Virus record (IMG/VR): IMGVR_UViG_3300042905_002653
Coordinates: 1 to 53,647 of that record
Reading direction: 5' to 3' (one strand)
Source: a virus
Length of the DNA: 53,647 bases
Shown: piece after piece, positions 9,341 to 47,003 of the stretch
Layout of the letters: every line of letters starts with the position of its first letter
How positions within the stretch are numbered: position 1 is the first letter of the stretch
The notes under the pieces: generated by a model
What the model saw: the letters and a program-made list of their open reading frames with translations, nothing else
Told to the model about the DNA's origin: nothing
The model's database searches: none
Program-made: the position numbers and the translations under genes

Positions 9341-9356
9341 GCTGCATCCATGCAGA
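9341..9356. promoter_or_regulatory. palindrome TCTGCA-N4-TGCAGA (11 of 12)
   Basis: GCTGCA-TCCA-TGCAGA on the plus strand, immediately before the gp2.5-like gene. The 15-base core is the same as at 46988-47003. Confidence 0.65.
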
Positions 9357-9374
9357 GTTGCAGCAGCACTCTGC

Positions 9375-9407
9375 CTCCTAGGGGCTTCACCGTCAAGCAC
9401 CTAGGAG
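9375..9407. promoter_or_regulatory. stable hairpin at the RNA polymerase/SSB junction
   Basis: CTCCTAGG pairs with CCTAGGAG (8 bp), then a G-A mismatch, then GCTT pairs with AAGC around a 7-base loop. It includes the stop codon of the polymerase. There is no T-run, so it may be an RNA-processing or attenuation site rather than a terminator. It resembles the hairpin at 17107-17129. Confidence 0.6.
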
Positions 9408-11803
9408 AACAGGTAGGGGTTTTGGCCGATCCGCCCTTCATCCAGGGTGCCCACAATCGGCGGCCTCGGAATCCTTAAACCCTTTGCAGCGCCTTTGATC
9501 TCGGCTGTGATCTCAGCCAGCCAGTCCGGCCGGTACAGCTCGGAGATCCGGTAGCTGAGCGTCGTGCTCAGCCACTCCGCATCGCAGGGCGCAACGGCAA
9601 AACAGTCATGGTTTGGCAGCATCGTGACACCTTGTGCTGCACCCTCGTTGACCATTGCCCACACCAGCGCCGCATCGAAGCTGTGGATCAGGTTGGCCGT
9701 GATCCCCCTTGTGGTCTCCCGGCCGCTGAGCTCACCCGGCACGGGGTCATCGAGCACGGTCTGCCACCGCCGGCTGCCATGCAGCAGCGTCCTCACCTTG
9801 CTGGTGCCGCTCAGCTCCTTGCCCAGCTGGATGGGCAGCCCCATGGGTGACGTCCACCGCAGCGGGGCGTTCGCCTTCATGCACTGGCGGCACGCATCCT
9901 TCAGCCACTTCTGCAGGGCCACCGCGCCACCCAGCCGGGCGCCCACGGCCAGGCCGAACTTCCGCGCCAGGTAGCGGCAGGGAATCAGCCGCTGCTCCTC
10001 CAGCTTGTCCAGCCCCACCATCCCCTCGGCCTCGTCCAACTGGGCCACCAGCTGCTCGGTCAGCCCCAGCAGCTGGGCGCCGTAGACGGTGGACATGACG
10101 GGCAGCTTGGCCATGGCCCTGCTGATGCCACGCTCCAGCCACTCCCGCGCCAGGCGCTGCTCCCGGTAGCTGCCGGCCTCCAGGTCGCTGCGCAGCAGCA
10201 GCGTCACCTCGGCGGCCACCTCCTCGTAGAGATCGTGGCGGGTGGTGCCGATCAGGTTGCACGCCCGGGCAATGGCCTGGTCGCGCACCAGGGCGGCCAT
10301 GATCCCCGGCCCGCTGGTGGTCTGGTCCAGCCGCACCAGCTGCCGGATCGGCCGGGACGGATCCTCCAGCCATAGCTGCATGGCCCGGCAACACTGCAGG
10401 AACTGCCAGGGCTCCTTGGCATCGCGCCACAGGTGGGCCCGCTCTACCGGATCCTCGGCCGCGGCCAGCATCCTCTCCAGTTGATCCCGGCCCCACTGCA
10501 GCCGGTCCACCCAGCTGCCCTTGATCCCCCAGTGGATCGCGGCTGCCTTGAAGATCCAGTCGGCGGCGCGGTCGTCGCAGGGCCGGGCATTGGCCACCAG
10601 CACCTGGGCCTTCTCCCAGTCCGGCCCCTGGTGGGTGGTGGCCCGGTTGGCGGTGTAGACCCTGCCCCGCATGTCCATGCAGTAGCTGAACCAGATCGAC
10701 TGGCCGGCCAGCTGCTCGGCCTGGCGGATTGATGTCTCGATGGTGTTGCGGATGCGGGCGTTGATCCGGCGGTCGTTGTGGCAGGCGTCCAGCTCCCGGT
10801 GGCGCTGGGCCATCGCCTCACGACCCACCAGCTCATGGGGCATGGGCGGCAGCTCAGGCGGCCGGCTGCTCACCGGGAACAGGCCCCGGATCGAGGCATC
10901 CCAGGCGATCCGCTGGTGCTCCACCATCCAGGGGTCGATCTCCAGCTGCTGCGCCTGCAGGGTGTTCACCACCCGCAGGGCAGGGGCCAGCGCCTCGGCG
11001 GTGAGGTAGTCGAGGGGGTGGCCCTGCCGTGAGCGCACCAGCCGCTGAGTGTTGCCCAGGTGGCCGCCGCCGGTCATCCCCGCCCATGGCCTGGGCTGGG
11101 TGAGCATCGGCAGCTTGCGGGCTGGCCTGGGCCGCGGCGGATTGGCGGCGATGACATCGGCCACCGCTGCAGCGGGCGCCAGCTGCAGGCCGCGGCAGCT
11201 CACCGACTTGAAGGTGCGCAGCAGCTGGGTCTCGGTGATGATCAGCTCGAGCAGGAAAGCACCCACCTGGAAGCGCTCCTCGCGGGTCCAGGGGGCGGCC
11301 GTGATCCCCAGCGCCTTGAGGTTCTCGGTTGATGCCAGGGCCTTGCCGTGCCGGCGGCGGCCGATGCGCAGCAGGTCCTGGCCCCTGTCCTCAACCGGCA
11401 GCGTTCTGATCTCGGTCTCGATCGCCTTGCCGATGGCGTTGGCCATCGAGCGATGCGACCCGGGCCGGCTGATCCGGTCCAGCACCACGGTGAGCGCCAC
11501 GGCAGCGATCGAGCGGGGCCCCTTCTCGCCCATGTGGAACAGCAGCCACATGCCGGCGTGATACGGGCCGGCCACCACCTGGCGGGTGATGGCCAGGCCG
11601 ATGGTGTGCTCCAGCGCCAGGGCCACACGCTCGCCGTGGGCGCGGAGCAGGACGCTGCCGTACTCGGTGACGCTCTCGCGCTCCTGCCGCCGGAGCCTGG
11701 CCCGGTCGATCGCGGCGCGGTTGGCAGCGGCCTCCTCGGCCCGCTGTTCCAGATGCCGCTGCCGCTGCTCGGGGGCGGTGGATGAACTGCCGGATGCAGA
11801 CAA
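9401..11803 (-). CDS. T7-type single-subunit RNA polymerase
   Basis: 800 residues against 883 in T7. Recognisable motifs: MDMRGRVYTANRATTHQG near residue 390 (T7 DWRGRVY); the catalytic Asp in RLDQTTSGPG near 493; the Lys/Tyr motif of the fingers, AMAKLPVMSTVYGAQ, near 560-575; and the second catalytic Asp in LPNHDCFAVAP near 731, preceded by NLIHSFDAALV. It would transcribe middle and late phage genes from phage-specific promoters. The start is probably TTG 11803 (MSASGSSSTAPEQRQRHLEQ); no in-frame ATG precedes the conserved region. A perfect 16-base palindrome lies 88 bases upstream. Confidence 0.95.
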   Translation of the reverse strand: MSASGSSSTAPEQRQRHLEQRAEEAAANRAAIDRARLRRQERESVTEYGSVLLRAHGERVALALEHTIGLAITRQVVAGPYHAGMWLLFHMGEKGPRSIAAVALTVVLDRISRPGSHRSMANAIGKAIETEIRTLPVEDRGQDLLRIGRRRHGKALASTENLKALGITAAPWTREERFQVGAFLLELIITETQLLRTFKSVSCRGLQLAPAAAVADVIAANPPRPRPARKLPMLTQPRPWAGMTGGGHLGNTQRLVRSRQGHPLDYLTAEALAPALRVVNTLQAQQLEIDPWMVEHQRIAWDASIRGLFPVSSRPPELPPMPHELVGREAMAQRHRELDACHNDRRINARIRNTIETSIRQAEQLAGQSIWFSYCMDMRGRVYTANRATTHQGPDWEKAQVLVANARPCDDRAADWIFKAAAIHWGIKGSWVDRLQWGRDQLERMLAAAEDPVERAHLWRDAKEPWQFLQCCRAMQLWLEDPSRPIRQLVRLDQTTSGPGIMAALVRDQAIARACNLIGTTRHDLYEEVAAEVTLLLRSDLEAGSYREQRLAREWLERGISRAMAKLPVMSTVYGAQLLGLTEQLVAQLDEAEGMVGLDKLEEQRLIPCRYLARKFGLAVGARLGGAVALQKWLKDACRQCMKANAPLRWTSPMGLPIQLGKELSGTSKVRTLLHGSRRWQTVLDDPVPGELSGRETTRGITANLIHSFDAALVWAMVNEGAAQGVTMLPNHDCFAVAPCDAEWLSTTLSYRISELYRPDWLAEITAEIKGAAKGLRIPRPPIVGTLDEGRIGQNPYLFS

Positions 11804-11885
11804 GGTGCGGCATCGGTAGCGGGATGCACTTATTACACCCCACCCCCGCAGAGTTGATCAGTGGGCCCCGTACTGCAGTTTCGGC

Positions 11886-11958
11886 GGGACATCTGCAGGG
11901 ATGCAGAACTGCAAAACGGTTTATGAGTCCGCTGCTTTCACCAGATAGCTAGACCCCC
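11886..11958 (-). other. tRNA-Met-like remnant, possible attP core
   Basis: On the minus strand a D-loop-like ATCTGGTGAA is followed by GCGGA-CTCATAA-ACCGT, which has the exact seven-base anticodon loop of a CAT (Met) tRNA, with one mismatch in the stem. Acceptor ends pair weakly (G-U pairs and one mismatch) and the T-arm is replaced by the TCTGCA palindrome, so it is not a functional tRNA. It may be a copy of part of a host tRNA gene used for integration. Confidence 0.3.
11892..11907. promoter_or_regulatory. palindrome TCTGCA-N4-TGCAGA (12 of 12)
   Basis: TCTGCA-GGGA-TGCAGA, a perfect copy, 88 bases ahead of the RNA polymerase start. If it is a promoter or operator it would control the phage polymerase. 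Confidence 0.75.
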
Positions 11959-11993
11959 GGGCAGTTGTGGCCTGGGTTTTGGGGTTTTTGGGT

Positions 11994-12032: not shown

Positions 12033-12076
12033 ATTTCGGCAGCCACTCTACGGCTGGTGGATACATCCGATTGAGT

Positions 12077-13063
12077 TCAGGCCTCCAGCGCTGCCACGCA
12101 GCTGGCCAGGGCCTCGGTGTGAAGGTGGAGATAGCGCTGCACGCTCTGGAGCGAGGTCCACCCGCCGAAGGTCATCAGCTGATGCAGCGGGATCCCACGG
12201 CTGGCCAGCTTGCTGGCGCAGGTGTGGCGGGTGCAGTGGATGGTCAGCGCCTCGTCGTTGATGCCCAGCTGCTCCTTGGCCTTGCTGAACAGCCAGCGAA
12301 ACTCGCTGTAGCGGTAGGGCCAGACCCGATGGCCCGGGACGGCCGGCAGATGGGGCAGCAGGGCATCCATGGCCCGGCGGGTGAGCGGGATCGAGCGGGC
12401 CCGGTTGGCCTTGGTCTCCCAGAAGGTGACGCGGGCCCGCTCGATGTCCACGTCCTGGCGCTTGAGCTTCTCGATCTCCCCCCAGCGGGCGCAGCTCTCC
12501 AGCAGGAACACGAACAGATCGGCCGCGGCGGGCTGGCCCATGGCCCGGAACGCATCGCAAAAGCCGGTGATCTCCTGCTCGGTGAAGGTGCGGTCCTTGG
12601 TGTTGCGGTTGGTCAGCTGCCGGGGCATGGCCGGGATGGCGCCCAGGTGGCCGTGGAGCACGGCATCGCTGAACATGGCCCGCAGGCAGCTGGTCTTGGC
12701 GTTGACGGTGCCGGGGCGGTTGCCGCGCTGGAGCAGCAGCTGGCGCCACTCGTTCACCATCGGGGCGGTGATGCTGCCCAGCTGGGTGAGCGGGCCAAAG
12801 TGATCCACGGCGGCCTGGGAATAGATCGAGGCGGTGCGCTCGAAGGCCTTGCCGGCCCAGCGGATGCGCAGGGAGAGGTCGCGGGCGTCCTTGATGGTGA
12901 TGCCGTCGGGCTCGCCGACCTGGCGGGCCACCAGCAGCTCCAGCATCTGGCGCTTGGCTTCGAGGGCCTCGGCTTTGGTCTTGCGCTTGGCGGTGCGGCG
13001 GGTGCCGCCCACGGTGACATCGGCGATCCAGCCATCGGCTGTCCGCCGGACTGATCCGGCCAT
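12077..13063 (-). CDS. int: tyrosine recombinase (phage integrase)
   Basis: 328 residues. The catalytic set is visible: Arg in CARWGEIEKL near residue 192, Lys in the beta-hairpin TKANRARSIPL, the H-x-x-R box in HCTRHTCASKL near 275-279, Trp in GGWTSLQSVQ in place of the second His, and the nucleophile Tyr in QRYLHLH near 310. The N-terminal ~100 residues resemble an arm-binding strand region plus SAM-like core-binding domain. It would integrate the genome at the host attB. The leader between it and the upstream regulator is a CACC repeat. Integrases next to the polymerase are known in cyanopodoviruses. Confidence 0.92.
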   Translation of the reverse strand: MAGSVRRTADGWIADVTVGGTRRTAKRKTKAEALEAKRQMLELLVARQVGEPDGITIKDARDLSLRIRWAGKAFERTASIYSQAAVDHFGPLTQLGSITAPMVNEWRQLLLQRGNRPGTVNAKTSCLRAMFSDAVLHGHLGAIPAMPRQLTNRNTKDRTFTEQEITGFCDAFRAMGQPAAADLFVFLLESCARWGEIEKLKRQDVDIERARVTFWETKANRARSIPLTRRAMDALLPHLPAVPGHRVWPYRYSEFRWLFSKAKEQLGINDEALTIHCTRHTCASKLASRGIPLHQLMTFGGWTSLQSVQRYLHLHTEALASCVAALEA

Positions 13064-13093
13064 GGTGGTTCTCGGTGGTGGTGGTGGTGGTGT
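13064..13093 (-). promoter_or_regulatory. CACCAC-repeat leader of integrase
   Basis: Six ACC units followed by GAGAACCACC directly before the ATG. There is no Shine-Dalgarno sequence. Similar A/C-rich leaders precede 14498-14656 and 14952-15890. Confidence 0.5.
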
Positions 13094-13426
13094 TCAGATG
13101 CGCTGCAGTTGCTGCAGCAGGGTGCGGCCCTTGCTGGAGAGCCGAACCAGGAAGCGCCGGCCCTCGTCCGGGTCGCGCTCCACGGTGAGCAGCCGGTAGC
13201 CGCGGTCGCCGTGGCGGTTGCGATCGGACAGGGCCGACACGCTGCGGGAGACGCTGGAGTTGGTGAGGTTTAGGGCCTCCTCCAGGTGCTCGAAGGTGCA
13301 GTGCTCGGTCGCGGCGACCTCTAAGAACAGTCGCGCTTGATGGAGCGGGAACCTAGTAGGGTCCTGCGCTGCAAACACAGCCAGGGCTTGGGAAAGCGAA
13401 GCCAAATCCATGGGCCCATGTGGCAA
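13094..13426 (-). CDS. MarR-like winged-helix regulator 1
   Basis: 110 residues. The recognition region FEHLEEALNLTNSSVSRSVS followed by a wing (RHGDRGYRLLTVERDPDEGR) and RRFLVRLSSKGRTLLQQL matches the MarR fold. ATG 13411 is an alternative start (MDLASLSQAL). It lies directly upstream of the integrase and probably governs the lysogeny region. A CCTAGTAGG dyad (13352-13360) lies inside its 5' end, and ACTAGGAG plus a palindrome variant lie just upstream, so autoregulation is plausible but unproven. Confidence 0.7.
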   Translation of the reverse strand: MPHGPMDLASLSQALAVFAAQDPTRFPLHQARLFLEVAATEHCTFEHLEEALNLTNSSVSRSVSALSDRNRHGDRGYRLLTVERDPDEGRRFLVRLSSKGRTLLQQLQRI

Positions 13427-13439
13427 CGGTTACTAGGAG

Positions 13440-13456
13440 TCTGGCACCGATGCAGA
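13440..13456. promoter_or_regulatory. palindrome variant with one inserted base
   Basis: TCTGGCA-CCGA-TGCAGA, both half-sites intact apart from one extra G. It lies 13 bases ahead of regulator 1 and next to TTACTAGGAG. Confidence 0.4.
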
Positions 13457-14497: not shown

Positions 14498-14656
14498 TCA
14501 GAAGGGGTCGTTTTCCATCGAGTCGTAGAGCGCTTCGCGCGCCATTGCTTCGCGGATTTGCTCCCGCTCGATCTGCAGTGCTTCGGCTTCGGTGTAGCCG
14601 TGTGTCATCCAGTAACCGGCGATCGTTTCATCCCCGGCTGTGACTTTGCGGGCCAT
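14498..14656 (-). CDS. small acidic protein (52 aa)
   Basis: ATG 14656, MARKVTAGDETIAGYWMTHG then a charged helix ending SMENDPF. The acidic C-terminus ending in Phe recalls partner-binding tails of SSB-like proteins, but the protein is too short for an OB fold. The upstream extension of the frame to 14866 is in a structured leader and is not expected to be translated. Confidence 0.5.
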   Translation of the reverse strand: MARKVTAGDETIAGYWMTHGYTEAEALQIEREQIREAMAREALYDSMENDPF

Positions 14657-14744
14657 GGTGTTCTCGTTGGTGGTGATGGTGGTGGTGTGCTGGCGTGAGA
14701 CCAGCAGGGAGCGGACGGATCCGCTCCGGGCTGGTGTCGGGTGA
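14657..14744 (-). promoter_or_regulatory. double-hairpin plus CACC leader 2
   Basis: Read on the minus strand: CAGCCCGGAGC, an 8-bp hairpin (GGAGCGGA/TCCGCTCC, loop TCCG), a second hairpin (TGCTGG/CCAGCA), then an ACC-rich linker and GAGAACACC before the ATG. The same order occurs at 15891-15966. Confidence 0.6.
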
Positions 14745-14951: not shown

Positions 14952-15890
14952 TCAGGCCTCCTCGGCTGGTGCCTCGGGCGCGATCAGGTCGGCCGCCTTC
15001 TTGGCTGCCCCCAGGGCCTTGAGCAGGGCCCGCGGGTCCTCCTTCAGCACCTGAATCCAGCTGTTCAGATAGCCGGCGTGGTGCTGCAGTTCAGAGCCGA
15101 TCTGCAGCCGGCGGCAGAGGATGGCGCTGCCCATCTCGGCCACCAGCTCCTCGCGTGCGTAGCTCGGGCTGCCGAACTGGCCGGACAAGTTGCGGGCAAG
15201 GCGGCTTTTGTGGCCGGTGCTGTGGATCGCTTCATGGGCCCACACCGCGGCGAAGTTCTCGCGGGTGTCAAAGGCTCGCGGCTCTGGCAGGGAGATCCGA
15301 TCCAAGCTCACGCTGTAGCAAGCGAGGGCGCCGCCGGTCTGGGCCTTGACCTCCCAGGCGGCCAGCACGTCCTCGGCATGGGCCAGGCGCTCGAGCTCGG
15401 GCCGGTTCTCGATGTTGCCGGTGGCCTCGTCGATGCGGCGGGCCAGGGCCCGGCCGGCGTCCTCGTCAACGCCCACCAGGTCGGCGGCATTGAACACGGG
15501 GACCAGCTTGTAGACGGTGAAGCTCCGGGCCTTGCTGCTGATTTCGCCGGGCTGGGCGTTGTCGTCCTCGATGGTGACGGGCCGTGGCTGGGCGATGCGG
15601 GCGGCCTTGCTGCCCTTGGCCGGGTGCCAGCCGTTGGCCTTGGCCTGGCCCGCTCCCATCCACAACGGCAGGGTGTTACCCCGGCTGAGGTTGCCCACCT
15701 CCAGCAGCAGGGGATTGCCCCCGCGGTACTGGTGGCCGGTGAGCAGGTTTCGGTGGGCGCAATCACCCACCCATGGACGCTGCCACGGGTTAAGGCCCTG
15801 CTCCATGAGGGCGATCAGATCGGCGGCCAGCTTTTCCTCAGGGGTGGGCCCGTCGTAGGTCCTGCGCTTGCGCGCTGCGGTCTTGGTCAT
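14952..15890 (-). CDS. ArdC-like antirestriction protein / zincin metallopeptidase
   Basis: 312 residues. The N-terminal ~150 residues match the ArdC ssDNA-binding domain (LIALMEQGLNPWQRPW, then YRGGNPLLLEV). The C-terminal half is a zincin-like metallopeptidase with HEAIH in AVWAHEAIHSTGH at about residues 218-222 and a downstream ELVAEMGSAIL that can give the third zinc ligand. ArdC proteins of plasmids and phages protect incoming DNA from restriction. Here it fits early entry of the phage genome, together with the methylase copies. A structured leader precedes it. Confidence 0.85.
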   Translation of the reverse strand: MTKTAARKRRTYDGPTPEEKLAADLIALMEQGLNPWQRPWVGDCAHRNLLTGHQYRGGNPLLLEVGNLSRGNTLPLWMGAGQAKANGWHPAKGSKAARIAQPRPVTIEDDNAQPGEISSKARSFTVYKLVPVFNAADLVGVDEDAGRALARRIDEATGNIENRPELERLAHAEDVLAAWEVKAQTGGALACYSVSLDRISLPEPRAFDTRENFAAVWAHEAIHSTGHKSRLARNLSGQFGSPSYAREELVAEMGSAILCRRLQIGSELQHHAGYLNSWIQVLKEDPRALLKALGAAKKAADLIAPEAPAEEA

Positions 15891-15966
15891 TGGTGGTGGT
15901 GGTGGTGGTGGTGGTGGTGTGCTGCTGAGGGCAGCAGGGAACCGCCGTAGCGGCTCCGGGCTGTCG
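15891..15966 (-). promoter_or_regulatory. double-hairpin plus CACC leader 1
   Basis: On the minus strand: CAGCCCGGAGC, hairpin GGAGCCGC/GCGGTTCC with loop TACG (a UNCG-type tetraloop), hairpin CTGCTG/CAGCAG with loop CCCT, then about eight ACC units up to the ATG of the ArdC-like gene. Same layout as 14657-14744. Confidence 0.6.
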
Positions 15967-16092: not shown

Positions 16093-16340
16093 CGGTGCGC
16101 CCCCTTAGCGGTGTCCTGCATGGCTGCAGTGGGCGGCAGGGCGGGCACCGGCGGCACCAAGGCCGCGGCGATCATCCCGGCCGCTCCCAGGGCCGCGCAG
16201 GCCAGGCTGAAGGCGGGCGAGCTCCTAGTAGGCCGGCCGGCGCCAGTGGTGCGGCGTTGCAGCCGACGCGGCGCTGTGCGCCGTTTCGGATGCCCTGCCC
16301 CAGCCACAGCGCGCCAGGCCGGCTCGCGTGTGTAGGTCAT
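16089..16340 (-). CDS. small membrane protein (83 aa)
   Basis: From ATG 16340: basic N-terminal half (MTYTREPAWRAVAGAGHPKR), then a hydrophobic segment ACAALGAAGMIAAALVPPVP. ATG 16409 would add 23 residues but would include the palindrome at 16367-16382, so the later start is preferred. First gene of the leftward lysogeny-side operon. Unknown function. Confidence 0.45.
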   Translation of the reverse strand: MTYTREPAWRAVAGAGHPKRRTAPRRLQRRTTGAGRPTRSSPAFSLACAALGAAGMIAAALVPPVPALPPTAAMQDTAKGAHR

Positions 16341-16366: not shown

Positions 16367-16382
16367 TCTGCGTTGCTGCAGA
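16367..16382. promoter_or_regulatory. palindrome TCTGCA-N4-TGCAGA (11 of 12)
   Basis: TCTGCG-TTGC-TGCAGA, flanked so that GGTCTGC/GCAGACC makes a 7-bp perfect dyad. It lies 26 bases ahead of the leftward operon. Confidence 0.65.
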
Positions 16383-17000: not shown

Positions 17001-17016
17001 TTTGCAGTGGTGCAGA
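17001..17016. promoter_or_regulatory. palindrome TCTGCA-N4-TGCAGA (11 of 12)
   Basis: TTTGCA-GTGG-TGCAGA, 150 bases ahead of the RepL-like gene. Confidence 0.6.
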
Positions 17017-17166: not shown

Positions 17167-17577
17167 ATGAAGCCTAGAGAGGACGGTCAAGAGGACTTCT
17201 GCATGGTTGGATTCGAGGCCATCAGCGAGCTGGTGGGTGCTGCCACCCGGGAGAAGCGGCTGCAGCCCCGCGACGGAACGGTGTTGTGGATGGTGGTGGC
17301 CAGCGTCAACTGGCGCAGCGGGCGGGCCAGCGTGACGGCCGCGGCCATTGCCAGCGACCTGGGGCTCAAGATGACGCAGTGCGCCTCCTCGATCCGACGG
17401 CTGCAGGCCGAGGGTTTGATCGCCCGCGGCATCGACCCCAGATCGCGGCACTCGTTCTTCCTGCTCAACCCCCGCTTGAGCTGGGTTGGGTCAACGCAAC
17501 GCCGCGGCCACCTCTACAAGCAATGGGACGAGCTGACGAAGATCCCCAAGCTGGATGAGTTGGACGAGGCTGGGTAG
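17167..17577 (+). CDS. RepL-like winged-helix protein
   Basis: 136 residues. A winged helix is visible: VTAAAIASDLGLKMTQCASS, then IRRLQAEGLIARGIDPRSRH, then FFLLNPRLSWVGSTQRRGHL. The 'LNPxL...G...R' ending resembles RepL-type plasmid replication proteins and related phage regulators. First gene of the plus-strand block, opposite to the early operon; it could regulate the divergent region or act in replication. Function inferred from fold only. Confidence 0.6.
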   Translation: MKPREDGQEDFCMVGFEAISELVGAATREKRLQPRDGTVLWMVVASVNWRSGRASVTAAAIASDLGLKMTQCASSIRRLQAEGLIARGIDPRSRHSFFLLNPRLSWVGSTQRRGHLYKQWDELTKIPKLDELDEAG

Positions 17578-17588: not shown

Positions 17589-17604
17589 TCTCCACCGCTG
17601 CAGC
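17589..17604. promoter_or_regulatory. palindrome TCTGCA-N4-TGCAGA (10 of 12)
   Basis: TCTCCA-CCGC-TGCAGC, ending one base ahead of the ATG at 17606. Confidence 0.45.
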
Positions 17605-17605: not shown

Positions 17606-17938
17606 ATGTCTGCCAACCAGTCGGCCAACGTCTACCTGGACAGCGCGGTGCGGTGTGCGATGAGCAAGTTCAACGGGTCGGTGGTGCCGCTGTGGCGCAT
17701 CTGGCGGCGGATTGTTGAGCTCGGTGCTGCAGCCCCAGCGTTCATCGCCCCGCAGGTCACGGCGGTCCAAGCACGGGTGACGGGCTTGAACGCACTCACC
17801 AAGTCGGCGCTGGCGGCGCTGCTGCTGGCGGACTGGGGGGAGACGGTGGACCCGGACAATTTCACCAAGAACCAGCTGATCGAGAAGGTGCTGGCCTACG
17901 AGGGCACTTGGGTGGAAGTGGGCTACACGGTCGGTTGA
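17606..17938 (+). CDS. hypothetical protein upstream of large terminase (110 aa)
   Basis: MSANQSANVYLDSAVRCAMS, an Ala-rich helical middle, then a segment reminiscent of a SAP-type helix-turn (LTKSALAALLLADWGETVDP, NFTKNQLIEKVLAYEG). It lies 130 bases ahead of the large terminase on the same strand and could be a packaging accessory protein; the protein at 19822-20088 fits a small terminase better. Confidence 0.55.
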   Translation: MSANQSANVYLDSAVRCAMSKFNGSVVPLWRIWRRIVELGAAAPAFIAPQVTAVQARVTGLNALTKSALAALLLADWGETVDPDNFTKNQLIEKVLAYEGTWVEVGYTVG

Positions 17939-18068: not shown

Positions 18069-19832
18069 ATGAGCGTCTACCCCATCCCGCCCGAACTGGG
18101 CATCGGCCGGTTCGCGTACTTCTTCTGCTACATCCTGCGGGAGCTGGGGCTGGCCGAGGAGCCGACCAAGCAGCAGCTGCGGATCTGCGAATGGGATGAG
18201 GTGGGCCCCGACCGGACGGTGACGGTTGGGTTCCGCGGGATTGCCAAGAGCACGATCAGCGGCGCCAGGGCGCTGCATCGGCTGCGCATCGACCCGGAGG
18301 GGGAGAAGATCCTGATCCCCGGTGCGACCGAGACCAAGGCCGAGGAGATCACCACCTTCATGCAGCGGTGCATCCGGGAGATCGACCTGCTGCAGTGCTT
18401 GGCGCCAAGGGATAACCAGCGGCAGTCCGTGCTGGCGTTTGATGTGGGCCCAGCAATCATCGGCGGTGACGGTGCGCCATCGGTGCGGGCGTGCGGGATC
18501 CTCAGCCCCTCGTTGACCGGCAAGCGGGCCACGATGATCATCCCGGATGACATCGAGACGCTCACCAACTCGATCACACCGCTGAAGCAGGAGCGGTTGT
18601 GGCAGGCCACCACGGAGTTCGAGTCGATCCTGCTGCCGGATGCGGGGCAGCCGCTGCCGCGGCAGATCAGCTTCCGCGGCACGCCGCACCTCGAAACCTC
18701 GATGTACTGGCGGCTGGTGCGCGAGCGCGGGTACAAGATGCGGATGTGGCCGGCCCGCTACCCCAAGCCGGATGAGCTGGATGTCTACGACGGCTGCCTC
18801 GACCCGCTGATGGTGGAGGAGGTGACCACCCATCCGCAGCTGGTGGGTGAGCCGACGGACCCCGAACGGTTCGATGACACGGAGCTGGTCAAGCGGGAGA
18901 CGGGCAGCACCAAGGCCAGCTGGCAGCTGCAGTACATGCTCAACTGCCGGCTGAGCACCCTCGACAAGTTCCCCATCCGCCTGGGGGATCTGATCGTGAT
19001 GGCGCTGGACGGGAAGGCGCTGCCGGAGGTGGTGAGCTGGGCATCAGGGTCGGAGCAGCGGATCAACGAGCTGCCCTGCGTGGGCCTTGGCGCTGACCGC
19101 TACTACCACCGGCCGATGACCGTTCAGGGGTGGCTGGCGAAGGCAGAGAAGTGGCGCAGCGTGCTGGCGATCGACCCATCCGGCCGCGGCAGTGACGAAC
19201 TGGCCTGGGCGGTGGTGGCAGAGCTGAACGGCAACCTGTTCCTGCTCGAATCCGGTGGCACCACCCGAGGGTATGAGGACGATGTGCTGGTGATGCTGGC
19301 GAAGATCGCCAAGCGGTGGGAGGTGAACGCTGTGATCCCTGAGCCCAACTTCGGCGATGGGATGTTCAGCAAGATCCTGCAGCCGGTGATGCAGCGCATC
19401 TACCCCTGCTCAATCGAGGAGGCGCCCAGATCAGCTGGGCAGAAGGAGCGGCGCATCATCGACGTGCTGGCGCCACTGGTGCAGCAGCACCGGCTCGTAG
19501 TGAACAGCGAGCTGATCCGCAAGGACTGGGAGGGCGCAGAGCGGGACGTGGACACGGGCCACCCTCGGTCACTGATGTACCAGCTGAGCCGGATCACGAC
19601 CGACCGGGGGAGCCTGCTGTACTACGACCGGATCGACGCCCTGGCGATCGCTGCAGCCCATTTCGTGGAAGCCGCGGCCCAGGACCAGGAGCGAGCAGCC
19701 CGAAGGCGCCAGGAGGAGCTGGTAGAGGCCTCCCTGGCGGCGTGGTTCGATGAGACGGGGGCGCGTGTGGATGCGCTGGCGCTGGGGATCATCCCAAAGG
19801 GCAGCGGCGCCACCGGTGGCGTCAGGCGCTAG
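18069..19832 (+). CDS. terminase large subunit (T7 gp19-like)
   Basis: 587 residues (T7 gp19: 586). Walker A-like GFRGIAKST at about residues 54-62, Walker B TMIIPDDIE near 155-163, and the RNase H-like nuclease starting LAIDPSGRGSDELAWAVVAE near 365, with a further acidic residue in DRIDALAIAAAHF near the C-terminus. It cuts concatemers and pumps DNA into proheads through the portal. Unlike in T7, the gene is on the strand opposite to the virion genes. Its last 11 bases overlap the convergent small terminase gene. Confidence 0.9.
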   Translation: MSVYPIPPELGIGRFAYFFCYILRELGLAEEPTKQQLRICEWDEVGPDRTVTVGFRGIAKSTISGARALHRLRIDPEGEKILIPGATETKAEEITTFMQRCIREIDLLQCLAPRDNQRQSVLAFDVGPAIIGGDGAPSVRACGILSPSLTGKRATMIIPDDIETLTNSITPLKQERLWQATTEFESILLPDAGQPLPRQISFRGTPHLETSMYWRLVRERGYKMRMWPARYPKPDELDVYDGCLDPLMVEEVTTHPQLVGEPTDPERFDDTELVKRETGSTKASWQLQYMLNCRLSTLDKFPIRLGDLIVMALDGKALPEVVSWASGSEQRINELPCVGLGADRYYHRPMTVQGWLAKAEKWRSVLAIDPSGRGSDELAWAVVAELNGNLFLLESGGTTRGYEDDVLVMLAKIAKRWEVNAVIPEPNFGDGMFSKILQPVMQRIYPCSIEEAPRSAGQKERRIIDVLAPLVQQHRLVVNSELIRKDWEGAERDVDTGHPRSLMYQLSRITTDRGSLLYYDRIDALAIAAAHFVEAAAQDQERAARRRQEELVEASLAAWFDETGARVDALALGIIPKGSGATGGVRR

Positions 19833-20088
19833 CCGGCGGGCGGATCGGCACCACCTTGGCCTTCTCCTCCAGCGTGCCGAAGCTGTGCAGCTTGCTGGCC
19901 ATCCGCTTCATCGCATCAGCAGCGGTGCCCTCGATCGGTGCGGCGCTGATGTTGTTCTGCTTCATCAGCTGGGTGAACAGTCGCCGATCCTCGGCGCTGG
20001 CATCACCGTTGCGGATCTTTTCGACCAGCTCATTGACGATGAGCTTGTGGCCCTCGTCATAGAGCTCTCGCAAATCGCTATCAGCCAC
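19822..20088 (-). CDS. probable terminase small subunit
   Basis: 88 residues from GTG 20088 (T7 gp18: 89). The core LRELYDEGHKLIVNELVEKI then RNGDASAEDRRLFTQLMKQN matches the pattern of T7-like small terminases, in which a short helical domain is followed by 'GxAtaxxlxxaxxxLKdNgI'. An ATG at 20118 would add 10 residues, but it would run through the palindrome at 20090-20105 and overlap the lysin start. It is convergent with the large terminase, an unusual arrangement. Confidence 0.6.
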   Translation of the reverse strand: MADSDLRELYDEGHKLIVNELVEKIRNGDASAEDRRLFTQLMKQNNISAAPIEGTAADAMKRMASKLHSFGTLEEKAKVVPIRPPASA

Positions 20089-20089: not shown

Positions 20090-20105
20090 GTTGCATGGGT
20101 GCAGA
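20090..20105. promoter_or_regulatory. palindrome TCTGCA-N4-TGCAGA (10 of 12)
   Basis: GTTGCA-TGGG-TGCAGA, one base from the small terminase GTG and 11 bases ahead of the lysin ATG. A single symmetrical site between two divergent genes. Confidence 0.5.
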
Positions 20106-20116: not shown

Positions 20117-20944
20117 ATGATGACAAAGGCCCAGACTGGCGACTACGCCGAACACTTCGACCCCAGCAAGCCCAACCACCGCGATTGGTTGCTGGCGGTT
20201 CTGGGCCGGGTGATGGCGCACGAGCCCCAGTCCTTTCTTGACCCTGGCAACTCTCTGCACCGTGAATGGCTGAAAGCGCTGCTCGATCAGCTGCTGAAGC
20301 ATGAGCCGGATGCGCTGAAAGAAGGCGGCAAGCTGCGCGAGCTATGGAAGGCTGACGCCACGGTGAAGGCTGCCAACCCGCTGGTTGGCGTGCCCTACTA
20401 CAGCCAGCGCGACTCGGGCCAGGTCAGCCAGCGGGATCGAACTTGTTTCTCGTCCAGTTGCGCAATGCTCCTGGAGGCCGTCAAGCCCGGGACGCTGAAA
20501 GGGGCCAACGGAGACGACCAGTACCTGGCGGTGGTGCAGCGCTTTGGGGATACCACTGACCCAGCAGCGCAAATCAAGGCCCTGGCGCACTACGGGGTGA
20601 CGGCCGAGCGGGTGATGGATGCCGATTTCCAACTGATCGAGCGTCAGATCGCCCGCGGCATCCCCGTGCCCTGCGGCTATCTGCATCGCGGTCATGTTGA
20701 CCGGCCGCAAGGCGGCGGCCACTGGCTGACCGTTTATGGGCACACCTCAACCCATGTGACTGTCCACGACCCCTGGGGCGAACCCGACCTGATCAGCGGC
20801 GCCACTCTCGACGCCAACGGCAAGGGGCTGCGCTTCACCCGCCTCAACTTCGGCAAGCGATGGATGGTCGAGCCGATTGGCGGCGGTGCCCACCGCTACG
20901 CCCCTGGCAAGGGCTGGGCCATGGTCGTCCACGCCGTCCGCTGA
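20117..20944 (+). CDS. C39-like peptidase, candidate endolysin
   Basis: 275 residues from ATG 20117 (or 20120). The C-terminal two thirds resemble peptidase C39-like proteins: VPYYSQRDS, catalytic Cys in RTCFSSSCAML, His in GGGHWLTVYG, Asp in VHDPWGEPD. The N-terminal third has two similar ~28-residue units (HRDWLLAVLGRVMAHEP and HREWLKALLDQLLKHEP), probably a binding domain. Located beside the terminases and a cluster of tiny membrane proteins, it is the best candidate for host-wall lysis. An upstream in-frame GTG is less likely. Confidence 0.7.
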   Translation: MMTKAQTGDYAEHFDPSKPNHRDWLLAVLGRVMAHEPQSFLDPGNSLHREWLKALLDQLLKHEPDALKEGGKLRELWKADATVKAANPLVGVPYYSQRDSGQVSQRDRTCFSSSCAMLLEAVKPGTLKGANGDDQYLAVVQRFGDTTDPAAQIKALAHYGVTAERVMDADFQLIERQIARGIPVPCGYLHRGHVDRPQGGGHWLTVYGHTSTHVTVHDPWGEPDLISGATLDANGKGLRFTRLNFGKRWMVEPIGGGAHRYAPGKGWAMVVHAVR

Positions 20945-21130
20945 CACCCACGGCAGTGCCGGCAGGCGGCCGCCAGAGAGGCCTCTGAGGCGCTTCGGGA
21001 GGCTGGTGCCGATGAAGTGGCCGGCGGGTTCGATGAAGGCCTTGAGCGCGACCAGCTGGACCATCCTGGCCAGCAGGGATGCCGCCACGATGTCCCCGAC
21101 AATGCGGACATCGTCCAGGGACCACTTCAT
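20747..21130 (-). CDS. small membrane-associated protein, 3' end antisense to lysin
   Basis: 127 residues if read to the stop at 20747. The N-terminus MKWSLDDVRIVGDIVAASLL continues as a hydrophobic helix (ARMVQLVALKAFIEPAGHFI). The last ~60 residues are antisense to the lysin gene and have shadow-like composition, so the original stop may have been lost. ATGA overlap with the upstream gene (21127-21130) supports the start. Confidence 0.45.
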   Translation of the reverse strand: MKWSLDDVRIVGDIVAASLLARMVQLVALKAFIEPAGHFIGTSLPKRLRGLSGGRLPALPWVSADGVDDHGPALARGVAVGTAANRLDHPSLAEVEAGEAQPLAVGVESGAADQVGFAPGVVDSHMG

Positions 21131-21378
21131 GGGTCGTGGTGGACGAAGCGCCCCTTCTCGTCGCGGGGTCGCTCGATGCCGGCAGGCGGGCGGCGCAGCT
21201 CGGGGTTTTCGGTCCAGTAGCCCTGCTCGTAGGACTTCTTGGCCACGGAGAGGCCCATGACAGCCAGGGCGGTGTTCCAGCGCTCAGCCGTCCAGCCGCC
21301 GGTGCCGGCGTAGATCAGGCCGACGGCAACGGGAAGGATCAGGGAGATGTCGAACTGGCCGGTGATGCGTGTCCTCAT
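21127..21378 (-). CDS. small membrane protein (83 aa), holin candidate
   Basis: One hydrophobic segment (FDISLILPVAVGLIYAGTGG), a second weaker one (ALAVMGLSVAKKS), and a charged C-terminus with RPRDEKGRFVHHD. It is in the lysis region and ATGA-coupled on both sides. The holin role is inferred from size and position only. Confidence 0.5.
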   Translation of the reverse strand: MRTRITGQFDISLILPVAVGLIYAGTGGWTAERWNTALAVMGLSVAKKSYEQGYWTENPELRRPPAGIERPRDEKGRFVHHDP

Positions 21379-21554
21379 CGGTCGCCCTCAAGGTGCCTGA
21401 TCCGGCTTTCGTGGTTCTCAAGCCATTGCTGCACTGCCTGGAGGGTCGAGGTGATCTTGCCCTCGAAGCGACCTGTCACGAATGCGATGCGCCAGAGCGC
21501 TGCTACGCCAGCACCGCTTATGCCAAGAAGCGTGAGGGATTCGGCAATGCCCAC
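21375..21554 (-). CDS. small membrane protein with coiled-coil tail (59 aa)
   Basis: From GTG 21554: GIAESLTLLGISGAGVAALW as a membrane helix, then FEGKITSTLQAVQQWLENHE and SRIRHLEGDR as an amphipathic helix. This layout is common among small phage holins and Rz-like proteins. The longer frame to 21734 begins with a Cys/Trp-rich shadow of the next gene. Confidence 0.5.
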   Translation of the reverse strand: MGIAESLTLLGISGAGVAALWRIAFVTGRFEGKITSTLQAVQQWLENHESRIRHLEGDR

Positions 21555-21621
21555 GGCGAGCTGGTCTGCACTGCTGCAGCGTAACGACCAGGCAAGAGGC
21601 GGCAAGTACCCGCCGGCTGCG

Positions 21622-21756
21622 CTACGGCTGCACCAGATCAGACCCCATCCAGTCGCCGGGGATCGCCAGCAGCAGCGCCAACGGCAGGGGCAGGGCACCC
21701 AGCAGCCAGACCATCCCAGCAGCCACCAGGGCAACGGCAGCGGCGAATCGGATCAA
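21622..21756 (-). CDS. very hydrophobic small protein (44 aa)
   Basis: TTG 21756 overlaps the TGA of the upstream gene (TTGA). Two hydrophobic helices (FAAAVALVAAGMVWLLGALP and LPLALLLAIPGDWM). Possible pinholin-like protein; the rare start codon lowers confidence. Confidence 0.4.
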   Translation of the reverse strand: MIRFAAAVALVAAGMVWLLGALPLPLALLLAIPGDWMGSDLVQP

Positions 21757-21917
21757 GCCGGGCGTTCTTCCTCCAGCAGCCACTGCGCAATCAGCCGCCA
21801 CTGGTCCGGGGAGAGCGATGGCCTGGCGTGCAGGTAGTCGGCACGTTCATCAGCATCCCGTAGCAATCGCCGGGCGAGCTGTCGCTTGTGGTCGCAAATT
21901 ACTCTTACTCGGTCCAT
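21753..21917 (-). CDS. small basic helical protein (54 aa)
   Basis: ATG 21917, MDRVRVICDHKRQLARRLLR, ending in an acidic helix (LSPDQWRLIAQWLLEEERPA). Soluble, located between two membrane proteins. Unknown. Confidence 0.45.
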   Translation of the reverse strand: MDRVRVICDHKRQLARRLLRDADERADYLHARPSLSPDQWRLIAQWLLEEERPA

Positions 21918-23857: not shown

Positions 23858-24049
23858 TCAGCTCTTGGTAACGGTGGCCAGCAGCCCGTTGCTGTAGGTC
23901 AGCGTCAGGGTCGCAACGGTGTTCCCGAACTCCCCGCCAGCCTTGTAGACGACCTGGCTGACCTGGCCGTTCGAGTAGGTCAGGCTGATGTGGTCGTGCT
24001 CAGGGATGCCCAAGCCGCGCTGGGCCAGGCCAAAAGGTTCAGCAGCCAT
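23858..24049 (-). CDS. small tail-region protein (63 aa)
   Basis: MAAEPFGLAQRGLGIPEHDH, then two matching strands, ISLTYSNGQVSQVVY and LTLTYSNGLLATVTK, suggesting an internal beta repeat. Preceded by the palindrome at 24075-24090. Confidence 0.5.
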   Translation of the reverse strand: MAAEPFGLAQRGLGIPEHDHISLTYSNGQVSQVVYKAGGEFGNTVATLTLTYSNGLLATVTKS

Positions 24050-24074: not shown

Positions 24075-24090
24075 TCTGCAGGGGTGCAGG
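24075..24090. promoter_or_regulatory. palindrome TCTGCA-N4-TGCAGA (11 of 12)
   Basis: TCTGCA-GGGG-TGCAGG, 25 bases ahead of 23858-24049, followed on the minus strand by AATAGGGCGAG. Confidence 0.65.
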
Positions 24091-25965: not shown

Positions 25966-27999
25966 TCAGTAGCTCCTGGAGATGACGGCACGGGTGACCC
26001 GGCCACGGATGGCTGAGTCGAACGGTGGGCCGCCGAGCTGGCCGGATCTCGCGTCGATCGTCAGCCCGCCGACGAATGCGGCATTGCCGGCGTCGTCCTG
26101 GCCGCTGAACTTCACCCGGGCGCCATTGCGCTGCACGATGCTGCGCTGGATGCGGCGGGCGGCCCGGCTGGGAGGCACCCGGAAATATTCCACGCCGGCC
26201 ATTGGTGCGGTCCACTGGTGATTGATGGCGGTGATCTCGCTGCGCAGCTTGCGCCGCACCGTCTCCACCGGCGTTGGCGCGGGGCCGGATCCCACCTCGG
26301 ACCAGTAGTTGTCCATCGTGGCCTTGAGGCGGGCCACCAGGGCATTGACGAAGGCCACGGCGCCGCTGGTGAGCTGGCCACCGGCAATCAGCTGCGCGGC
26401 CAGGCGATCCCAGCTCGCCTTGAACGCGGCATGGAAGCTGTAGGCGTAGACGCAGGTGCCATCGAACTTGAACATGCCCTCGGCAAAGTTGAGCATCGGT
26501 CGCTCAAAGCCATGCACCAGGCTCGCCGCCAGCGCATCGAGGAACAGGCCGCTGTCGGTGCGGGTGAGTGTCTCGAATCCTGCGGGCCAGGTGTTGGCGC
26601 TGTGATTGGCCACCAGGAAGGACCACACATCGTTGATGAGCGCCACCCGCGCACCGTTGATGATCGTGGCGGCGTTGCCCTGGGTGGCGAGCACCGCTGG
26701 ATTCACTTTCAGCGGCACCACCCGCTGGATGCTGCCCTCGCTCCAGAAGCTGTAATCACCGAACTGGGAGCTGGAGCCCGACACCACCATCTGGCCGCCA
26801 TCGAGACACATGAAATGCCGGTGAGCGCCCACGCCGATGGCGTTCACCGGGTTCACAAAGCCCCGGTTGCGTGCCACATACCCCAGTCCATTGGCGGTGC
26901 TCGGGGTGAAGCCCCAGGTCATGATGTTGGGGTACACCGTGTAGGCGGACAGCACCGACGCATCCGCCAGTACGCAGCCGCCGCCACGGGGGTGCGCCGG
27001 GTTGCCGCCAGGCGCATCCATCGGCAGCGGTGTGGGCACATCCGTGGTCACGCTCGTCACCACGCAGTTCTGGCCATAGGGCACGCCGCCGGGGAGGATC
27101 AGAGCCCCGGGCCTGAACGCCATGGCGAACCCCTTGGTGGGGTTGTCGAAGTCGTCAATCCGCCAGCCGGTGAACTTCAGCCCGTAGAGGTGAACACCGT
27201 TGCCGCACAGGAACACATTGCGCTCCTCGTTACCGCTGGTGGGCCGGATCACGGTGCGGCGCTGCATGTTGCTGCTGATGATCGTGGTGAAGTCCGGCAC
27301 CGGGATCTCGCCCGCCGTGCTCACGTCGCCAAGCAACTTGACGGTCCAGCCCACCTTGTCGCCCTGGGCCTCGATGATCTCCAGCGCCCGCTCGATGGAC
27401 GCCAGCGCCCGGTCCTCGTTCCGCCCCGTGGAGTTGTTGTTGCCGCCAGGGGCTACATACAGCGTCTTGTGGACGTCGTGGCTGGGCCTTGCGGTAACAG
27501 TGATCGGCGCTGTGCCGTCGAATGGCACTCCGTTGATCGCCCGCGGGGTGGTGAGGCGATCTGCTCTGACCGCTGCGGCAGCGCTGACAGCAAAGCCTGC
27601 CGATGCGGCATAGGTTGCAGTCCCAGCGGCCTGCGACAGGGCCGCGAAGCGGCTGCGGTCGAGCAGCTCCTGGATCACATACAGGCTCTGCAGATCGGCC
27701 CGGTTGTGATCAAAGGCCTGAATTGTGGAGCCGTCGGTCCACTCCACCAGCTGTACCGCCTTGGGCGTGGCGCGGAGGATGGTCAGCTCCTGTCCATTGG
27801 GGGCAGGGTCAGTGAGCCGGATGCGGGTGTCGCTGATCCAGGTGAAGCCGCCAGGGGTGAACAGCTCTGTGGCGAGTGTGTCCTCGAAGTAGTCCCACCC
27901 ATAGCCGACGCGCACATGGGCGCGGCTGAGATAGGGGAACGGCACATCGAAGTCCTTGGTGCTGCCGTTGCCGGGGTAGGTGATGTAGGAGAGGGACAC
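25966..27999 (-). CDS. tail fibre protein with T7 gp17-like N-terminus
   Basis: 677 residues from GTG 27999. The first ~150 residues match the T7 tail-fibre attachment domain: SYITYPGNGSTKDFDVPFPY, GWDYFEDTLATELF, LTILRATPKAVQLVEWTDGS. The rest is a beta-helix-like region (YVAPGGNNNSTGRNEDRALA) and a C-terminal knob. It attaches to the tail-tube complex and recognises the host surface. A perfect TCTGCA palindrome ends four bases ahead of its start codon. Confidence 0.85.
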   Translation of the reverse strand: MSLSYITYPGNGSTKDFDVPFPYLSRAHVRVGYGWDYFEDTLATELFTPGGFTWISDTRIRLTDPAPNGQELTILRATPKAVQLVEWTDGSTIQAFDHNRADLQSLYVIQELLDRSRFAALSQAAGTATYAASAGFAVSAAAAVRADRLTTPRAINGVPFDGTAPITVTARPSHDVHKTLYVAPGGNNNSTGRNEDRALASIERALEIIEAQGDKVGWTVKLLGDVSTAGEIPVPDFTTIISSNMQRRTVIRPTSGNEERNVFLCGNGVHLYGLKFTGWRIDDFDNPTKGFAMAFRPGALILPGGVPYGQNCVVTSVTTDVPTPLPMDAPGGNPAHPRGGGCVLADASVLSAYTVYPNIMTWGFTPSTANGLGYVARNRGFVNPVNAIGVGAHRHFMCLDGGQMVVSGSSSQFGDYSFWSEGSIQRVVPLKVNPAVLATQGNAATIINGARVALINDVWSFLVANHSANTWPAGFETLTRTDSGLFLDALAASLVHGFERPMLNFAEGMFKFDGTCVYAYSFHAAFKASWDRLAAQLIAGGQLTSGAVAFVNALVARLKATMDNYWSEVGSGPAPTPVETVRRKLRSEITAINHQWTAPMAGVEYFRVPPSRAARRIQRSIVQRNGARVKFSGQDDAGNAAFVGGLTIDARSGQLGGPPFDSAIRGRVTRAVISRSY

Positions 28000-28003: not shown

Positions 28004-28019
28004 TCTGCACGGCTGCAGA
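28004..28019. promoter_or_regulatory. palindrome TCTGCA-N4-TGCAGA (12 of 12)
   Basis: TCTGCA-CGGC-TGCAGA, perfect, four bases ahead of the fibre GTG, where a ribosome-binding site would be expected. Confidence 0.75.
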
Positions 28020-42186: not shown

Positions 42187-42190
42187 CTGC

Positions 42191-42206
42191 TCTGCGGCGG
42201 TGCAGC
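42191..42206. promoter_or_regulatory. palindrome TCTGCA-N4-TGCAGA (10 of 12)
   Basis: TCTGCG-GCGG-TGCAGC, four bases ahead of the tail tube A ATG and just after the terminator, as expected for a restart promoter or a translation operator. Confidence 0.5.
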
Positions 42207-42227
42207 CCTCATGCTATCGGTGCCAAC

Positions 42228-42260
42228 AAAAAGGCCCCAGCGCGCCAAACGCTGGGGCCC
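42228..42260 (-). terminator. rho-independent terminator after the capsid gene
   Basis: GGCCCCAGCG (42233-42242) pairs perfectly with CGCTGGGGCC (42250-42259), followed on the minus strand by five T residues. It occupies the same place as T7 Tphi, between capsid and tail tube A genes, and would give partial termination and raise capsid mRNA. Confidence 0.85.
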
Positions 42261-43392: not shown

Positions 43393-43408
43393 TCTGCATG
43401 AGTGCAGA
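43393..43408. promoter_or_regulatory. palindrome TCTGCA-N4-TGCAGA (12 of 12)
   Basis: TCTGCA-TGAG-TGCAGA, perfect, 73 bases ahead of the capsid gene, where T7 has its strongest promoter. Confidence 0.75.
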
Positions 43409-43419: not shown

Positions 43420-43426
43420 ACCCTTG

Positions 43427-46026: not shown

Positions 46027-46418
46027 CGGCCGATGTTCAACCCGGTGGCCGGTGCGCGGCGGGTGCCGATGGTGAGGCTCGGGGTGCGCGGAGCAGCGGG
46101 CGCAGCGGGCTGGATGGCCTCAGTGGTCTGGGCGGCAGCGGCCGGCGCCTGCTGCGTGGTCTCGACGGTGTAGGACTGGTTGGCCATGGCTGCGCTGGAG
46201 CTGATCGCGGCCTGTTGCTGCTGCAGTTCCTCGGCAGCTGCCCCGGCGGCGGCATTGGCCTCGTCGATCTGTGCCTGCAGCTGCTGCTGGAACTCGGCCT
46301 GGCTGGCCTCTGCTGCCTTGGTGGCCATGTTGAGCTGCTTCTCCTGCTGCTTGATCTCCTTGTTGGAGGGCCCCTGGTACACAACCTTGGGGGGCTGGGG
46401 GGTTGATCCCATGCACAT
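46023..46418 (-). CDS. coiled-coil protein, MC-GLNI pair member 1
   Basis: 131 residues: MCMGSTPQPPKVVYQGPSNK, a long Gln/Ala-rich coiled coil, then Pro/Ala and a C-terminus APATGLNIGR. It shares both termini with 46421-46822. It sits next to the portal, where T7-like phages encode small virion or assembly proteins; probably structural. Confidence 0.65.
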   Translation of the reverse strand: MCMGSTPQPPKVVYQGPSNKEIKQQEKQLNMATKAAEASQAEFQQQLQAQIDEANAAAGAAAEELQQQQAAISSSAAMANQSYTVETTQQAPAAAAQTTEAIQPAAPAAPRTPSLTIGTRRAPATGLNIGR

Positions 46419-46420
46419 GA

Positions 46421-46822
46421 TCAGTACCTGGCGATGTTGAGGCCGGTGCCGGCCTTGTTGCCGCTGGCCGCCTTGGGCTCGATGCGCAGGGTGGTCTTGC
46501 CCTGGGGGCTGGTCATCCCCTGGCGGCTGCTGCCCAGCACCGGCGCCTTGGCGGCCGGCTCGGGAGTCGGCGCACCGATCAGCGCTGCCATCCGTGCTGC
46601 GTCGGCAGCGGTCTGCGATGCGCGCTGCTCCTGGGCCGCCAGCAGCTGCTGCATCGTCCCCTGCTGGTTGAGGGTGGCCTGGTTGAGCCGCTCCTGCATC
46701 AGCATGGTGGAGCTCTCCTGCTGCTGGCGCAGCGCGGCCATCTGCTGATCGGCCATCCGATCAAAGGCGCCCATGTCCGGCATGGTGATCGTCGCCCGTG
46801 GGGCGGAACCTCCGAAGCACAT
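46421..46822 (-). CDS. coiled-coil protein, MC-GLNI pair member 2
   Basis: 133 residues from ATG 46822 (MCFGGSAPRATITMPDMGAF). Gln-rich helix (MAALRQQQESSTMLMQERLN), then Ala/Pro-rich, ending GTGLNIARY. The ends match member 1 while the middles differ, suggesting duplication with conserved docking ends. Its ATG overlaps the upstream TGA (TGATG). Confidence 0.65.
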   Translation of the reverse strand: MCFGGSAPRATITMPDMGAFDRMADQQMAALRQQQESSTMLMQERLNQATLNQQGTMQQLLAAQEQRASQTAADAARMAALIGAPTPEPAAKAPVLGSSRQGMTSPQGKTTLRIEPKAASGNKAGTGLNIARY

Positions 46823-46998
46823 CAGCTGAGGCCCTCCTGTTGTTCGGCGTGCCAGCGCTTGATGCAATCCACCACCGCCTGCTCACCGATCCAGTGATCA
46901 ATGTCCCGATGGGACATCGAGCGATCCGGCTTTTGGCCAAAGGTGGCGTCGAGCCGCTTGATCAGTTCATCGCTGACGATGGGAAACACTGCATCCAT
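46822..46998 (-). CDS. small phage protein (58 aa)
   Basis: ATG 46998: MDAVFPIVSDELIKRLDATF, then a helical, charged C-terminus. The 'FPxVSDELxxxLD' start is familiar from small genes between exonuclease and portal in cyanopodoviruses; function unknown. The start codon lies inside a TCTGCA-type palindrome. Confidence 0.6.
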   Translation of the reverse strand: MDAVFPIVSDELIKRLDATFGQKPDRSMSHRDIDHWIGEQAVVDCIKRWHAEQQEGLS

Positions 46999-47003
46999 GC
47001 AGA
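46988..47003. promoter_or_regulatory. palindrome TCTGCA-N4-TGCAGA (11 of 12)
   Basis: ACTGCA-TCCA-TGCAGA, covering the start of 46822-46998 and separating the exonuclease from the virion cluster. Confidence 0.65.

Follow-up and report, generated by a model that had tools for sequence, protein, structure and literature searches.

Analysis of the virus record IMGVR_UViG_3300042905_002653 (53,647 nt, 66% GC; this whole stretch is called the window below) identified a dispersed palindrome, TCTGCA-N4-TGCAGA, as the core of a 22-bp two-fold symmetric site that precedes most transcription units and is conserved at orthologous places in related phages. We favor the explanation that the palindrome is a DNA operator recognized by a protein of two-fold symmetry, because an A/T preference that played no part in site selection lies exactly 3 bp outside both arms, because G-U and A-C breaks in the arms are about equally frequent, and because -10-like hexamers lie on one side of it. 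We consider the chances about even that the putative binder is a homodimer of regulator 1, a small MarR-like protein encoded beside the integrase, which would silence lytic units at host-type transcription starts. Judged from its gene content and its nearest polymerases, the virus is an integrase-bearing T7-like cyanopodovirus of the Autographiviridae, in the S-SRP02/MedDCM G9 group, which infects freshwater cyanobacteria. Measured by its polymerase, the virus is closest among cultured phages to Synechococcus phage S-SRP02 (46%), and the uncultured MedDCM G9 phages come next (35 to 38%). The window also encodes a gp2.5-like single-stranded DNA-binding protein (SSB), an exonuclease, a portal, a capsid, tail tube A, a terminase, and an endolysin.

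The copies of the palindrome in the window, with the number of matches to the 12 arm bases, are as follows.
9341..9356, minus strand: 11/12 (TCTGCATGGATGCAGC on the minus strand), 5 nt 5′ of the SSB ATG; the orthologous site is kept in many relatives
11892..11907, minus strand: perfect, 88 nt 5′ of the RNA polymerase open reading frame (ORF), adjoining a tRNA-like sequence (probable attP)
13440..13456, minus strand: degenerate (TCTGCATCGGTGCCAG on the minus strand), 29 nt 5′ of the ATG of the MarR-like regulator 1 gene
16115..16130, strand unassigned: 10/12
16367..16382, no strand: 11/12, at the start of the leftward early unit, with orthologues in relatives L006, L010, and L012
16806..16821, no strand: 10/12, intergenic
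17001..17016, plus strand: 11/12, 151 nt 5′ of regulator 2 (17167-17577)
17589..17604, plus strand: 10/12, immediately 5′ of the gene at 17606-17938
20090..20105, no strand: 10/12, between the divergent genes 19822-20088 (minus) and endolysin 20117-20944 (plus)
21565..21580, no strand: 11/12, within the ORF 21079-21837
24075..24090, minus strand: 11/12, 25 nt 5′ of the gene at 23858-24049
28004..28019, minus strand: perfect, 4 nt 5′ of the tail fibre gene 25966-27999
42191..42206, minus strand: 10/12, 4 nt 5′ of tail tube A; GATAGCAT and the capsid terminator precede it
43393..43408, minus strand: perfect, 73 nt 5′ of the major capsid gene
46988..47003, minus strand: 11/12, right after the exonuclease gene and ahead of the next unit, 7 nt after TAGCCT

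Every coordinate was checked, and all 13 positions given by an earlier sequence-only reading were correct, including the copy at 13440 with one inserted base; the copies at 21565 (11/12), 16115 (10/12), and 40531 (10/12, within a tail gene) are additional. That reading also stated that the palindrome precedes most transcription units, which holds for the RNA polymerase, SSB, the MarR-like regulator 1, regulator 2, endolysin, tail fibre, tail tube A, capsid, and the unit after the exonuclease. Nine matches of at least 11/12 occur in the window, compared with a maximum of two for any of 179 permuted half-sites of the same symmetry. The strong matches are mostly intergenic (8 of the 9 at 11/12 or better and 13 of the 15 at 10/12 or better), while intergenic sequence makes up 18% of the window by our own gene calls. 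Unbiased expectation-maximization (EM) motif discovery in the upstream regions of the window returned the palindrome as the top motif, with a log-likelihood of 78.8 versus ∼41 for shuffled sequences. Matches with three mismatches numbered 42 against 32.6 ± 5.4 by chance, and since this count barely exceeds chance, the signal resides in the strong matches. The small excess at that level and the frequency of CTGCAG in a GC-rich genome could be taken to mean that the palindrome is an artefact of chance or composition; this reading, to which we assign almost no probability, is ruled out by the permuted half-sites, the intergenic bias, and the conservation at orthologous places.

Two other sequence elements adjoin copies of the palindrome. 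The capsid and tail tube A genes are separated by a terminator-like hairpin with a T-run (42207-42260), which immediately precedes the tail tube A site and is kept in relatives. Between the integrase and RNA polymerase genes, next to the perfect copy at 11892, the sequence at 11908-11952 resembles a tRNA anticodon arm (agcagcggactcataaaccg), and its counterpart in relatives is tRNA-Leu(UAA)-like; ARAGORN found no complete tRNA there, and the sequence is a probable attP.

Related contigs were gathered through their polymerase, portal, and terminase proteins and a polymerase alignment. Relatives with RNA polymerase identities of 36 to 72% carry the palindrome at orthologous places (before the RNA polymerase, SSB, capsid, tail tube A, and tail fibre genes and after the exonuclease), and at these sites the arms are kept while the central four bases differ, which extends to the relatives the variable center first noticed in the window. 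The conservation spans phages from 72% polymerase identity to L013 (39%) and S-SRP02, as well as the MedDCM phages. Dozens of relatives carry the site ahead of many gene groups, with nCTnCA-N4-TGnAGn as frequent variants of the arms. Upstream of the SSB site, relatives have TTGAC or TTGCC, a 17-nt spacer, and a -10-like hexamer (TTGACG-17-TACGTT-10-palindrome-ATG in L146). The regulator 1 site keeps the same 29-nt spacing in many relatives, where it has the TCTGCAnCGGTGCCAA form and abuts a second palindrome, CCTAGG. S-SRP02 has fewer perfect sites, and EM discovery in its upstream regions gave a ACCACCACC leader as the top motif and did not return the palindrome; the S-SRP02 genome paper uses neither the word promoter nor the word palindrome.

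Across the relatives, the symmetry of the site extends beyond its arms. Among 94 non-redundant oriented sites, the positions 3 bp outside the arms are A/T in 81% and 86% of cases, compared with a background of ∼40%. For the 90 start-distal sites the values are 79% and 82% (p ∼3e-13 and ∼1e-15, which are optimistic because the site counts come from related phages and our own gene calls). There is no strong preference for A over T, neighboring positions show nothing comparable, and the A/T content is raised in every clade. These positions played no part in site selection and their signal is unbiased, whereas the clade consensus of the arms is biased by the search pattern. The full site is therefore W-N2-TCTGCA-N4-TGCAGA-N2-W (W, A or T), a form fitted by all three perfect copies in the window, with half-site centers 10 bp apart and each W 11 bp from the dyad. 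Symmetric half-sites one helical turn apart with an outer A/T minor-groove position are characteristic of operators of winged-helix dimers, and by analogy with MarR-family structures they would be the expected trace of a dimeric protein whose wings contact the minor groove.

The sequence-only reading had also offered an RNA stem at translation starts. Such a hairpin at the 5′ ends of messages, acting in translation control, processing, or stability, would fit the many copies that end 0 to 6 nt short of a start codon that has no recognizable Shine-Dalgarno sequence. However, other copies lie 73 to 150 nt upstream, the outer pair is often broken, and the unselected A/T positions have no role in a hairpin. 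The idea that variants keep pairing through G-U did not survive as a rule, with 34 A-C mismatches against 29 G-U pairs on the transcript strand. Compensatory pairs are rare (9 symmetric double changes in 132 sites), the two half-sites changing independently, and Rfam gave no match for the palindrome. Because A-C breaks are as frequent as G-U pairs, and given the few compensatory changes and the lack of an Rfam match, the RNA stem was rejected as very improbable.

The position of the sites relative to promoter-like sequences is one-sided. Counted over the 94 sites, a -10-like TAnnnT hexamer ending 3 to 17 nt upstream of the palindrome was seen 37 times, compared with 3 times at 18 to 34 nt and never at the mirror position at the same distances; at 3 to 11 nt, 28 cases were observed versus 7.3 expected from shuffling. 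Examples are GATAGCAT-TGG 5′ of tail tube A and GGTAGCCT-GAG 5′ of the post-exonuclease unit, both with a -10-like hexamer and no obvious -35. In relatives L159 and L171, TTGACA at the regulator 2 promoter is followed closely by the palindrome, which falls in the spacer. A generic sigma70 -35/-10 score was only weakly enriched over all sites; the informative result was the position of TAnnnT. From the upstream placement of TAnnnT, we infer that the sites overlap host-type start points or adjoin them on the downstream side.

The genes that bear on the identity of the binder are the following.
9401..11803, minus strand: T7-like single-subunit RNA polymerase (phrog_414, E=1e-125)
12077..13063, minus strand: tyrosine integrase, downstream of regulator 1
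13094..13411, minus strand: MarR-like regulator 1, the proposed binder (phrog_9665; 105 aa; beside the integrase)
17167..17577, plus strand: regulator 2, a conserved RepL/MarR-like winged-helix protein with a fast-changing recognition helix

Another of the earlier proposals was that the phage RNA polymerase uses the palindrome as its promoter or as part of it, which we regard as unlikely. The sites are placed in the genome much as the phage promoters of T7 and LUZ100 are (RNA polymerase, SSB, capsid), and the proposal survives because, with the palindromes masked, EM discovery found no other motif common to the lytic units above shuffled sequences. However, the phage promoters of T7 and LUZ100 (such as the mapped LUZ100 promoters, AATTACCACACAG...) are asymmetric, lack a variable center, and follow the specificity loop of the polymerase. 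T7-like promoters have an asymmetric conserved core of ∼17 to 23 bp that includes the start, whereas the conserved part here is the symmetric 22-bp site only, outer A/T positions included, with a variable center. The spacing to TAnnnT varies from 3 to 17 nt, and sites also occur at early regulator promoters. The promoter reading is also disfavored because the specificity loop, which in this group changes more quickly than the remainder of the polymerase does (conservation 0.33 versus 0.41), differs strongly between clades while the motif stays constant.

The sequence-only reading had named two MarR-like proteins as potential binders, and the one on the integrase side, regulator 1, is the better candidate. 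It reached 22 bits against Pfam MarR_2, below the cut-off of 27, and is shorter than classical MarR proteins. Its AlphaFold model (pLDDT, 90.7) is a winged helix-turn-helix whose top Foldseek hits are MarR proteins, the best being Escherichia coli MarR with operator DNA (5h3r), and a profile search also hit MarR structures. With a winged helix, a D-R wing (D80 and R86 are invariant), and a predicted MarR fold, it shows features of the MarR family. Regulator 1 occurs in most of the relatives for which the upstream flank is available; among 14 records of the clade, six gave no match to it and may be fragments. Within the protein, the recognition helix stands out by its conservation (0.63, versus 0.44 for the remainder, in divergent pairs). 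It is homologous to pMarR of P-SSP7 (PSSP7_011, gp0.7), with which it shares an invariant S-R in the recognition helix (S55-R56, aligned with S66-R67 of pMarR). The pMarR protein is dimeric, binds DNA downstream of the transcription start site, and needs R67 for DNA binding (PMC9692554). Together, these features suggest that regulator 1 is the best candidate binder of the 22-bp site.

The operator could belong to another dimeric protein instead, such as regulator 2, another small phage protein, or a host factor, although we hold this to be rather improbable. Regulator 2, a winged-helix protein, is likewise conserved, and its own promoter carries a site. However, its recognition helix diverges as much as the rest of the protein (0.33 versus 0.35 in divergent pairs) and changes even among the five phages of the closest clade (0.57 identity), all of which keep TCTGCA. 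A host regulon was ruled out, since the four host assemblies showed no enrichment and a motif density at chance level outside phage contigs. This alternative would also gain if regulator 1 used the second palindrome, (ACT)CCTAGG(AGT). That palindrome is rarer than expected genome-wide and clusters at three places per genome, namely, the SSB promoter (two copies), regulator 1, and regulator 2, with a spacing of 11 to 14 or 22 to 23 bp.
CCTAGG palindrome: window 9371-9405 and 17107; L121 10058, 10072, 13599, 18908, and 18931; L140 4428, 4442, 8115, 12404, and 12427
It looks like a separate cooperative operator.

The sites and regulator 1 could also serve activation, with a dimer downstream of weak, -35-less promoters recruiting the host RNA polymerase, a possibility that we judge somewhat unlikely. 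Bound downstream of the transcription start, the homologous pMarR activates the host rne promoter, and it binds the alpha subunit of the host RNA polymerase (PMC9692554), and the tail tube A and post-exonuclease sites are those without an obvious -35. On the other hand, sites behind TTGACA (L159 and L171) and across the start region would be sterically repressive by default, and T7-like temperate phages are hypothesized to use MarR as a repressor (PMC10134795). Repression is the likelier sign.

Under the favored explanation, the two recognition helices of a regulator 1 dimer would enter the major groove, each reading one CTGCA half-site, and the wings would contact the minor groove at the A/T pairs 11 bp from the dyad. 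The dimer would sit on, or at most ∼20 bp downstream of, host-type starts (-10 TAnnnT) of the lytic units that carry sites (RNA polymerase, SSB, both regulators, capsid, tail tube A, tail fibre, endolysin, and the post-exonuclease unit), where it would most likely block initiation or early elongation. Many lytic units would be silenced together in lysogeny or in the lysis/lysogeny decision. Regulator 1 would also limit its own synthesis, which fits the degenerate site 29 nt 5′ of its start. A repressor/operator network is accordingly the best supported of the three earlier readings, given the symmetry with its outer A/T positions, the placement relative to -10-like hexamers, the sites at the promoters of the regulators, and the conservation.

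Several observations weigh against repression by regulator 1 at this site. Its homologue pMarR is reported as an activator (PMC9692554), and CCTAGG, rather than TCTGCA, could be the operator of regulator 1. No dispersed palindrome network was found in LUZ100, P-SSP7, HTVC019P, or S-CBP2, which are MarR-integrase T7-like phages. Good sites are scarce in some relatives that have regulator 1 (one each in G002 and G012), and G011, whose regulator matched just in part, has none with one mismatch or fewer. The site families are phylogenetically related, and their counts are not fully independent.

Known systems share parts of this arrangement. In phage P1, one repressor, c1, acts at many dispersed operators, which are asymmetric 17-mers, and the protein is unrelated. 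The stoperators of mycobacteriophages L5 and TipsytheTRex are likewise many copies of one repressor site in short intergenic spaces, but they are 13 bp, asymmetric, monomer bound, and oriented with transcription, whereas the sites described here are also dispersed and intergenic but symmetric, 22 bp long, and tied to starts (PMC9283540). P-SSP7 has a homologous protein with a site downstream of the transcription start, but the action of pMarR was shown on the host rne gene (PMC9692554). In LUZ100, as in the window, a MarR-like gene immediately precedes those for a tyrosine integrase and a T7-like RNA polymerase, in that order. The LUZ100 report hypothesizes that MarR acts at sites flanking the RNA polymerase promoter (PMC10134795, citing Boeckman et al. 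2022). Those proposed sites flank that promoter only; in the window, one type of 22-bp site is repeated across most lytic units, including capsid and tail.

Other features of the window were noted. A CAACCACCACCACC leader, possibly a translation-start element, recurs right before the start codons of early genes (13057-13092, 14649-14684, and 15878-15913, and also in L121). A 3.6-kb direct repeat (2012-5577 and 47987-51553; 96.5% identical, 45,976 bp apart) may mean that the contig is longer than one genome unit and joins two strain variants, or may be a true long repeat. Tandem arrays of 12-nt and 15-nt repeats lie at 537-848, 3605-3835, 49581-49811, and 52559-52858, and the 15-nt arrays are pentapeptide-repeat-like.

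The Autographiviridae are treated as strictly lytic, and how lysogeny is controlled in the members that carry an integrase is an open question. With a defined 22-bp site and a named candidate protein, the proposal is directly testable, also in the cultured phage S-SRP02, and the site offers a signature by which cyanophage contigs can be searched for temperate potential. If correct, the proposal would extend operator control in a T7-like phage beyond the RNA polymerase promoter to a network spanning the genome and would explain silent structural genes. More tentatively, one MarR protein at one 22-bp site may coordinate most lytic units through host-type promoters, either by silencing them in the lysogen or, on the pattern of its homologue pMarR, by recruiting the host RNA polymerase to the structural genes. 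In that case late transcription would be driven mainly by something other than the T7-like polymerase of the phage, in contrast to the T7 paradigm.

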